A DNA stretch of 13,845 bases from assembly GCA_021849525.1 (NCBI GenBank), contig JAJZSS010000007.1:1-13845 (forward strand). The letters are read 5' to 3'. The stretch is from Chloroflexota bacterium. Its GTDB lineage: Bacteria > Chloroflexota > Anaerolineae > Anaerolineales > UBA4823. Shown here one piece after another: positions 6,774 to 8,735 of the stretch (within the stretch, counting starts at the first letter, position 1; every line of letters starts with the position of its first letter). The translations under genes were made by a program, and so were the position numbers. A model generated the notes under the pieces. That model saw only the letters and a list, made by a program, of their open reading frames with translations. It had not been told where the DNA came from and ran no database searches.

Positions 6774-7406
6774 TTAATTTGGGGCGGTAATTACCTTTTT
6801 ACGAGCGTAATGCCGGCGGGCTTTAGCCCGGTTTCCACAATCATCCATATCACACCAACGCCGGCTATGATTCTTGCTGGTGTCATAAAATAACCAGCGG
6901 CAGATTTCATCCTCGCAAATCCCTACTCGCTGCAGATGGGCAGAATCCAGTAGATCGGCTGCCGCTTGAGCGATGGGCCACAATACCTGTTCTAAATTTT
7001 CTGTAGTACGCTCCCATTCCCAGGCGAAGTGATCTAATTGAAAAACGAGCTTATAGTGACGGGCAGCCACTGCCAGTTCATTATTTAAAGTGTCGAGGTC
7101 GCTTTGCTGCGGAGTGCTCTTTTCTTTAGCAGCTTCTATAAGGTGGAAAATTGCTTCTCGGAGCAGGAGGGCTCGTTGAAGTGCTTGTTCACCTTTTTCT
7201 GGGACCTGGCAGGCAGCGTCCATTAATGCCTGGGCTTTGTCCACGCCGATCTGCCCGCTCTGCACACTCCAGGTAAGCAGGTCGTTATAGTGCTTCAAAA
7301 GCTCGCCTGGTTGGTTGCTCCCCCGTGAGCTGAGTGTGTTGGCGAAATTTATAACCAGCTGGAGAGAAAGTTTTTCTTCATTTAGAGAATCGCTTTGAAT
7401 AGGCAT
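6774..7406 (-). CDS. CGNR zinc-finger protein with ABATE domain, probable transcription regulator
   Basis: About 210 residues from ATG 7406, which has AGGA 11 bases upstream; the same frame can be extended to a TTG at 7436, but without a ribosome site. The N-terminal two thirds match the ABATE stress-induced domain (LVINFANTLSSRG near the start, then helices). The C-terminus is a CGNR zinc finger: ICEDEICRWLFYDTSKN, then RRWCDMDDCGNRAKARRHYAR. Four cysteines are placed to bind zinc, and the basic tail suits DNA contact. Family members are regarded as transcription regulators, often acting on their own locus. That fits the very unusual promoter arrangement directly upstream. The target signal is unknown. 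Confidence 0.92.
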   Translation of the reverse strand: MPIQSDSLNEEKLSLQLVINFANTLSSRGSNQPGELLKHYNDLLTWSVQSGQIGVDKAQALMDAACQVPEKGEQALQRALLLREAIFHLIEAAKEKSTPQQSDLDTLNNELAVAARHYKLVFQLDHFAWEWERTTENLEQVLWPIAQAAADLLDSAHLQRVGICEDEICRWLFYDTSKNHSRRWCDMDDCGNRAKARRHYARKKVITAPN

Positions 7407-7443
7407 ATGCTTTTTTATCCTGCAAATAACCTTCAAAAACCAC

Positions 7444-7815: not shown

Positions 7816-7961
7816 TAAATTCTAGAATCCTGAGAAGGGAAAGACAACCGGCGGAAATTCAACCTGCATAAATCATTTAAAAAGGTAAAATTTAAGATAT
7901 CAACGCGCATTATATTCTGGTGAAGCAACCCAGAAAGGTCAGCATTTCGAAGGAGTCTTCT

Positions 7962-8735
7962 ATGGCGTTACAGGTTGGAGACATCGCTCCAGACTTTTGT
8001 CTGGATAGTCACCTGGGAAAACCGGTAAGGTTAAGTGATTATCGAGGTCAGCGCAACGTTGTCCTGGCTTTCTTCCCGCTTGCCTGGACCCCGATCTGAA
8101 CGGGTCAGATCCCATCCTACCAGGTCGCTCTTGACCGGTTTGATGGGGTCCAGACCCAGGTGCTGGGTCTCAGTGTAGATAGTGTGCCTTGCCTGGAAGC
8201 CTGGGCTGAAAGTCTGGCTGGTATCACCTACCCATTATTGAGTGATTTCTACCCACATGGCAAGGTCGCCCAATTATACGGAGTATTACGCCCGGAAGGA
8301 AAGAGTGAGCGTGCGCTATTCATCATCGATAAGCAGGGCGTGATTCGATATGTGGATGTTCACGATATAGATCACCAGCCGGATAATGAAGTATTGTTTG
8401 CTGAATTGGAGAAGCTGGAGCCCTATTACGCTGCCCAATATGCAGCCCGGATTGCGGCTGAGAAAAAATCAGAGCCGGAGCCGCCTGCTGGACCTACTGC
8501 TGATGTAGTCCTGTACTGCACGCCTTGGTGCCCGGCTTGCCGGCGGGTGCGAGCATTCTTACGCGAGAACCAGATTTCATTTGAAGAAATAAATATTATG
8601 CAGGATCGGGCTGCAGCCACCCGGGTTCGCGAATGGACCGGTGGATACGAGACGACACCCATCATCAATGTTCGTGGTACGATTGTTATTGAGTTCGACC
8701 AGAGTCGAGTGGCAAAATTACTTGGGATTAAATGA
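7962..8735 (+). CDS. Selenocysteine-containing peroxiredoxin fused to glutaredoxin (UGA at codon 46)
   Basis: A 257-residue peroxidase if TGA 8097-8099 is read as selenocysteine. ATG 7962 has AAGGAG (7950-7955) at 6 bases. Residues 1-150 form an AhpC/TSA-type peroxiredoxin of the AhpE/Bcp kind, with VGDIAPDF at the start and [10 protein letters not shown]46-TGQIPSY at the active site. U46 falls exactly on the peroxidatic Cys of the PxxxTxxC motif (P39, T43), and Arg117 fits the conserved active-site Arg. Cys77 ([11 protein letters not shown]) is a candidate resolving residue. A charged/Pro linker (about 158-179) leads to a glutaredoxin domain (180-257) with C190-P-A-C193 and the cis-Pro T232-P233. 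The expected role is reduction of peroxides, with the attached domain recycling the active site. The frame stays open and conserved for 211 codons after the TGA, which argues against a dead gene. No selA, selB, selC or selD lies in the window. Sec reading is inference, well supported by the downstream hairpin. Confidence 0.88.
8102..8157 (+). promoter_or_regulatory. Bacterial SECIS-like stem-loop directly after the in-frame UGA
   Basis: A long hairpin begins 3 bases after TGA 8097-8099. The base pairs are 8102-8106 with 8153-8157, 8108-8116 with 8142-8150 (one G-U pair), 8119-8121 with 8137-8139, and 8123-8126 with 8133-8136. A8122 is bulged near the top. The 6-base apical loop (8127-8132) starts with G. 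From the UGA to the loop there are 27 bases. This fits the published bacterial SECIS consensus: a small loop with a G in its first two bases, 16-37 bases from the UGA. SelB would bind it to deliver Sec-tRNA. Confidence 0.8.

Follow-up and report, generated by a model that had tools for sequence, protein, structure and literature searches.

The window analysed here, a 13,845-nucleotide stretch from the start of contig JAJZSS010000007.1, carries on its forward strand a gene whose single reading frame, from ATG 7962 to a real stop at TGA 8733-8735, is broken only by an in-frame TGA at codon 46. Read through that codon, the frame would give a product of 257 residues with a predicted selenocysteine (Sec) at position 46. 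The features of the locus, all on the forward strand, are:

7950..7955, ribosome-binding site AAGGAG, 6 nt before ATG 7962 (from the sequence)
7962..8735, predicted selenoprotein gene, AhpE-type peroxiredoxin plus glutaredoxin/mycoredoxin-like domain (from the read-through frame, domain matches and homologues)
7974..8354, peroxiredoxin domain, Pfam AhpC-TSA, residues 5-131 (Pfam E 2.4e-37)
8097..8099, in-frame TGA, codon 46, predicted selenocysteine 46 at the peroxidatic position of PxxxTxxU (from frame, alignment and homologues)
8108..8150, SECIS-type stem-loop in the coding RNA (from folding, recoding and compensatory changes)
8160..8735, 191-residue open reading frame with a GTG start, from standard gene calling (from the mechanical ORF list and public entries)
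8190..8192, Cys77, candidate resolving cysteine, not universal (from homologue comparison)
8505..8684, glutaredoxin domain, residues 182-241 (Pfam E 2.3e-15)
8517-8519, Cys186, an additional cysteine invariant in 42 aligned rows (from the alignment)
8529..8540, CPAC active site with Cys190 and Cys193 (from sequence and alignment)

An initial sequence-only reading of this DNA had proposed a single interrupted frame with TGA at the position of the peroxidatic cysteine and a CPAC glutaredoxin domain behind it. Sequence and translation agree on the frame, and Pfam and the alignment place codon 46, which lies in a 13-residue motif, at the peroxidatic position of the AhpC/TSA domain. The Pfam Glutaredoxin model (PF00462) scores 57 bits with the window protein, against a gathering cut-off of 22.9, and is matched at E values up to 1e-5 in all 42 rows of alignment A3, which holds 42 of the fusions. 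Many homologues also have a purine-rich site upstream of their start. The same reading had anticipated that conventional gene calling would return a 191-residue fragment from GTG 8160; this fragment is in the ORF list, and the two best public entries are 191 residues long. The shorter open reading frame is an artefact of treating the TGA as a stop.

A search for homologues with Sec or Cys at the site, followed by alignment, gave 87 distinct fusion genes among the matches listed, of which 80 have TGA at the peroxidatic codon and 7 have TGT or TGC, with sequence kept on both sides. The in-frame TGA is thus not a matter of chance, and the gene has what is expected of an in-frame-UGA selenoprotein gene: coding sequence conserved on either side of the codon and cysteine at that codon in homologues. 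Aligned rows share 49-71% identity with the window protein, and P39, T43, residue 46, R117, C186, C190, C193 and P233 are invariant in the 42 rows of A3. These counts follow the removal of 12 duplicate loci before the structure tests and the tree, and they leave out L038, whose catalytic region reads N; most of the homologue sequences come from metagenome assemblies.

Part of this set comes from a scan of named genome contigs that kept 80 of at least 578 relatives. Among the matches listed, it contains 72 fusions (65 with TGA, 7 with TGT or TGC) and 8 unfused proteins, all 8 with TGA. One of the scan patterns held a Cys codon, so the scan, if biased, would be biased towards Cys. Record titles are of Chloroflexota type for 71 of the 72 fusions listed and name Slackia for the remaining one; among the carriers are Leptolinea sp. 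HRD-7 and Anaerolinea thermolimosa IMO-1, and A. thermolimosa has a TGA copy at L094. The contig carrying fusion L133 bears the name Slackia heliotrinireducens (Actinomycetota); in the tree this fusion clusters with Chloroflexota, and the assembly label is doubtful.

The genome surveys give the distribution of the gene within the lineage. Across 61 genomes (the window's own and relatives) we found 27 near-full-length fusions, each with one TGA; TGA fusions occur in 25 of the 37 genomes that make up the window's own family here and in 2 of 24 from the remainder of the order. An even draw of 298 genomes from the class, own genome included and overlapping the named-contig scan at least at L096, yielded 33 matches at 1e-60, about one ninth. 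Twenty-nine of these are full length with exactly one TGA each, stops being counted irrespective of position; two of the partial matches have one TGA, and two also have other stops. Judged from these sequences, the design is no peculiarity of one genome: many environmental bacteria share it, most of them Chloroflexota.

In a tree built from the peroxiredoxin part only, in which support is below 80% at 24 of 94 inner branches, the 7 Cys fusions fall at three places within the Sec fusions. These placements suggest replacement of Sec by Cys. Eight unfused Sec AhpE-like genes (L134-L141) from Acidobacteriota, Bacillota and the former Deltaproteobacteria are nested within the Chloroflexota fusions, a position that suggests transfer and domain loss. 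A further arrangement is seen in genus g14 (L041, L042), where a Cys peroxiredoxin and a redoxin are encoded by separate adjacent open reading frames, possibly a pre-fusion or split state.

The RNA just downstream of the UGA folds into a stem-loop. In the window, positions 8106-8153 fold with -25.4 kcal/mol (z -4.81), and none of 200 dinucleotide shuffles is as low; a shorter stretch that cuts part of the outer helix gives a nonsignificant z of -1.57. The apical loop (8127-8132) begins 27 nt downstream of the UGA, with G as its first base, so the window gene has both the directly downstream stem-loop and the loop G of a SECIS element. We also used a synonymous recoding test, in which protein sequence and codon usage are held fixed, on the 48 bases that begin at +12 after the T of TGA. 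The window gene folds at -21.6 in this test, compared with -9.9 (sd 2.8) for its recodings, none of 2,000 being as low.

The same signal is present across the family. Among the matches listed, 88 TGA genes (80 fused and 8 unfused) have a mean z of -2.67 at +12, with p <= 0.05 in 73 and 15 falling short, whereas the 9 listed Cys genes have a mean z of +0.25 and none is significant. The +12 segment was the strongest of 36 scanned and was later repeated with more shuffles. For the 51 bases that start at the TGA itself, the mean z is -1.75 in TGA genes, with p <= 0.05 in 47 of 88, and +0.32 in Cys genes (again among the matches listed). The segments at +36 and +48, both of which overlap the stem-loop, give mean z values of -1.42 and -1.18 in TGA genes, and the other segments scanned range from +0.2 to -0.93. 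Sec and Cys genes alike also have slightly more stable folding than expected (mean z near -0.6 to -0.9) some 36-72 bases ahead of the TGA.

Base-pair conservation was counted in set A2. Of the 80 distinct fused Sec genes among the matches listed, 42 have U at codon 45, and A2 contains 41 of these. The structure pairs in 82.4% of cells, compared with 72.7% when shuffled and 26.5-47.0% when slid, the slid control favouring this structure because it was taken from one of the sequences. In these 41 genes, double-changed cells number 65 against 25.5 in shuffles (0 of 500 had as many), and pairs changed on both sides number 9 against 6.4 (5 of 500). In the 80 Sec fusions listed, the loop opens 22-30 nt downstream of the UGA, at 27 nt in 48 of them; one of its two leading bases at least is G in 64, and neither is in 16. 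RNAalifold found no consensus structure in mixed alignments; with two groups of 20 formed according to their 3' sequence, it recovered mainly the outer helix, consistent with a one-base register shift between clades that is seen in the alignment. Taken together, the RNA structure downstream of the UGA is under selection.

The sequence-only reading had looked to selA, selB, selC and selD in the same genome, and three of the four were found. The genome assembly (68% complete, 536 contigs) contains selA (contig C60), selB (C338) and selD (C102), and in it tRNA-Sec was not found: there were nine matches below cut-off, and the eight that were checked are other tRNA genes. Searches of the window with Rfam and ARAGORN gave no lead. 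tRNA-Sec is present in 44 of the 61 genomes, and for the 27 with a TGA fusion, own genome included, selA was found in 25 and tRNA-Sec in 20; the single genome with neither is 77% complete. Two further genes of the own genome have an in-frame TGA. The selD gene (L143, G000:C102:2500-3800) reads SSCAGUASK and looks like a selenoprotein gene itself, and L142 (G000:C290:773-1813) is peroxiredoxin-like with the motif FTUPFC (UxxC type).

We compared 19 hand-picked genomes, comprising all 7 with a Cys fusion, 8 with a Sec fusion, 2 with split Cys genes and 2 with unfused Sec genes. selA was found in 7 of 8 Sec-fusion genomes versus 2 of 7 Cys-fusion genomes, and tRNA-Sec in 7 of 8 versus 3 of 7. Both are present in the two split-Cys and the two unfused-Sec genomes. 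In four related Cys-fusion genomes, whose completeness is not given, neither selA nor tRNA-Sec was found. This pattern suggests that the change from Sec to Cys went together with loss of decoding in one lineage, whereas in the lineage of L107 and L132 no such loss accompanied it.

Based on these observations, we estimate at about 90% the probability that the gene encodes a Sec peroxiredoxin of the AhpE (one-Sec) type joined to a mycoredoxin/NrdH-like glutaredoxin, a predicted Sec peroxidase. Codon conservation, the naturally occurring Sec and Cys versions, a SECIS-type fold without counterpart in the Cys genes, and the presence of selA, selB and selD in the genome all bear out the original proposal of a Sec peroxiredoxin-glutaredoxin.

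The identities of the two domains are the basis for how such an enzyme could work. The best PDB match to the N-terminal domain is AhpE of Mycobacterium tuberculosis (Rv2238c, a one-Cys peroxiredoxin), with a sequence E value of 6e-30 and a concordant profile match; the structure model (mean pLDDT 91.8, pTM 0.79) aligns with AhpE at TM 0.85-0.94, depending on target length. The assignment as AhpE-type follows from an AhpC-TSA domain closest to AhpE, the P-x3-T-x2-C/U signature and the active-site Arg, so that the P-T-C/U-R active-site residues are kept. AhpE itself has Cys and no fused domain, whereas the window protein has Sec and a C-terminal glutaredoxin domain. PDB matches to that domain include glutaredoxin 7c10, redoxins 3zit and 3zij, and 2lqo (putative glutaredoxin Rv3198.1), the last of which we take to be mycoredoxin-1. 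The best NCBIfam redoxin models for the window protein, GlrX_YruB and mycoredoxin, are both below cut-off; mycoredoxin TIGR02200 scores 47 bits against 89.5, so the likeness is to the way mycoredoxin works and does not extend to membership. More generally, none of the 25 models listed, of 29-31 matching per protein, reaches its NCBIfam cut-off. The domain shares the CPxC redoxin type with mycoredoxin-1, NrdH and the glutaredoxin family, and differs in being fused to its probable client and in having an extra Cys four positions N-terminal to the CPxC pair. AhpE is described as a one-Cys enzyme whose sulfenic acid is reduced by mycoredoxin-1, directly or through mycothiol (PMC4360819, in the part consulted). 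With an AhpE-like N-terminal domain and a mycoredoxin-like C-terminal domain, the fusion would join a domain pair known to work together.

Other known systems resemble the window protein in one respect each. Membership in the PrxU family was rejected, as model NF040737 scores 59 bits with the window protein and 62 and 66 bits with two relatives, against a cut-off of 270. PrxU of Eubacterium acidaminophilum, unlike the window protein, is not known to have a glutaredoxin domain. The hybrid of Haemophilus has a peroxiredoxin followed by a glutaredoxin in one chain, like the window protein, and uses Cys in a Prx5-type peroxiredoxin; this would make it an analogue, not a close relative, and probably a separately made fusion. 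The parallel with E. acidaminophilum drawn in the sequence-only reading extends to the Sec at the same TxxU peroxidatic position (PMC13188914, in the sections covered) and not to the family. Prx-PP2C and other Prx-like selenoprotein fusions of the GOS marine survey also combine a Sec redox domain with another domain, and the partners named in the portion of that survey covered are phosphatase, secretin-like and unknown domains, with no glutaredoxin (PMC2398784).

We infer Sec insertion in cells, peroxidase activity, an intramolecular relay and the final electron donor, in the following scheme. UGA 46 would be decoded as Sec by SelB and tRNA-Sec, directed by the stem-loop just downstream. The Sec46 selenolate would reduce H2O2, an organic hydroperoxide or peroxynitrite and become a selenenic acid, which Cys190 of the CPAC domain, in the same chain or in the partner chain of a dimer, could attack to form a selenenylsulfide. 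Cys193 would then resolve it, leaving a Cys190-Cys193 disulfide for reduction by a thioredoxin-reductase-type enzyme or a small thiol.

We considered whether the fused glutaredoxin is instead not the main reductant, with Sec46 resolved by Cys77 in two-Cys style, by thioredoxin or by small thiols, and CPAC serving other disulfides. Residue 77 is Cys in 82 of the 99 fusion loci listed (duplicates included) and in 6 of 8 unfused Sec relatives listed, and the occurrence of unfused Sec AhpE-like proteins in other phyla likewise speaks for reduction without CPAC. Yet 16 of the 99 loci have Ser, Val, Ala or Gly at that position (1 is unmatched), whereas Cys190 and Cys193 are invariant in the 42 aligned rows and the pattern C-x3-C-x2-C is present in 99 of 99 loci, with Trp before the second Cys in 98 and Gly in L106 (all among the matches listed). 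Moreover, in M. tuberculosis the one-Cys AhpE has a free-standing glutaredoxin-like protein as its reductant (PMC4360819, in the part consulted). Because Cys77 varies and the CPAC cysteines do not, we regard the CPAC relay as probably the main resolver of Sec46, with Cys77 as its principal, though unlikely, rival.

It appears very improbable that the TGA is a true stop in a decayed or split gene with the 191-residue downstream frame as its product. Gene callers do report that fragment, and the two parts are separate neighbouring frames in genus g14; against this, a single TGA stands at the catalytic codon in nearly all of the distinct fusion genes listed (80 of 87) with conservation on both sides, a product begun at GTG 8160 would be missing the catalytic residue along with the beginning of the fold, and the split g14 genes that were read (L041, L042) carry Cys. 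A pseudogene or sequencing error was likewise rejected, the same TGA codon occurring in many genomes. Slighter still is the likelihood that UGA is read as Trp (code 4), as Gly (code 25) or by a suppressor tRNA, as some public predictions would have it, and we rejected it: the gene itself and several nearby open reading frames in relatives end in TGA, the alternative codon in homologues is Cys, selA, selB and selD are in the own genome, and Cys genes do not have the downstream structure.

Database entries show how annotation has distorted the family. Among the matches listed, 120 relatives include 53 shorter than 215 residues that lack the catalytic site; the site residue is Cys in 46, Trp in 17, Gly in 2 and Arg in 1, and one long entry lacks the pattern. 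The Trp and Gly entries, seen as protein entries only, are consistent with gene-calling software having tried codes 4 and 25. Public entries P0002-P0121 include pieces of roughly 190-210 residues, several of them named glutaredoxin by JGI. JGI names some entries "peroxiredoxin/glutaredoxin," so the domain pair has already been seen. Frequent as it is in the window's own family, the fusion is often cut short or mistranslated in public databases.

Sec peroxiredoxins with the TxxU motif form a well-established family. A Sec peroxiredoxin-glutaredoxin fusion was not among the matches listed in a literature search of titles and abstract openings, with subscription journals mostly outside it, and in these matches we found no sign that the Sec nature of the fusion had been noticed earlier. 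Such a selenoprotein is not named in the portions covered of a 2026 review (PMC13188914), a 2022 review (PMC9312934), a 2006 survey (PMC1794560) or a 2008 survey (PMC2398784), and the main text of the two reviews has no word beginning with Chloroflex. The 2006 survey, in the part covered, gives three Chloroflexi selenoproteins in three families (PMC1794560). The fusion would accordingly add a selenoprotein architecture to those in the covered portions of the 2022 and 2026 reviews (PMC9312934, PMC13188914).

On balance we lean towards a previously unlisted architecture. It would be a Sec peroxidase complete in itself, made by fusion of an AhpE-type peroxiredoxin to its mycoredoxin-like reductant, and Sec may speed a direct relay from selenenic acid to redoxin. 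Such an enzyme could serve peroxide defence in Chloroflexota, and lineages without Sec decoding may have kept the fusion by a switch to Cys, leaving natural Sec/Cys enzyme pairs. A peroxidase with its own reductant, and with natural Cys replacements where selA and tRNA-Sec were not found, would allow a direct test of the benefit of selenium to a peroxiredoxin.

In the surroundings of the gene, flanking ORF lists of nine loci, compared by eye, had no common neighbour. The window itself has, near the fusion gene, an ABATE/CGNR zinc-finger protein, a putative stress-induced regulator, at 6774-7436 on the reverse strand.
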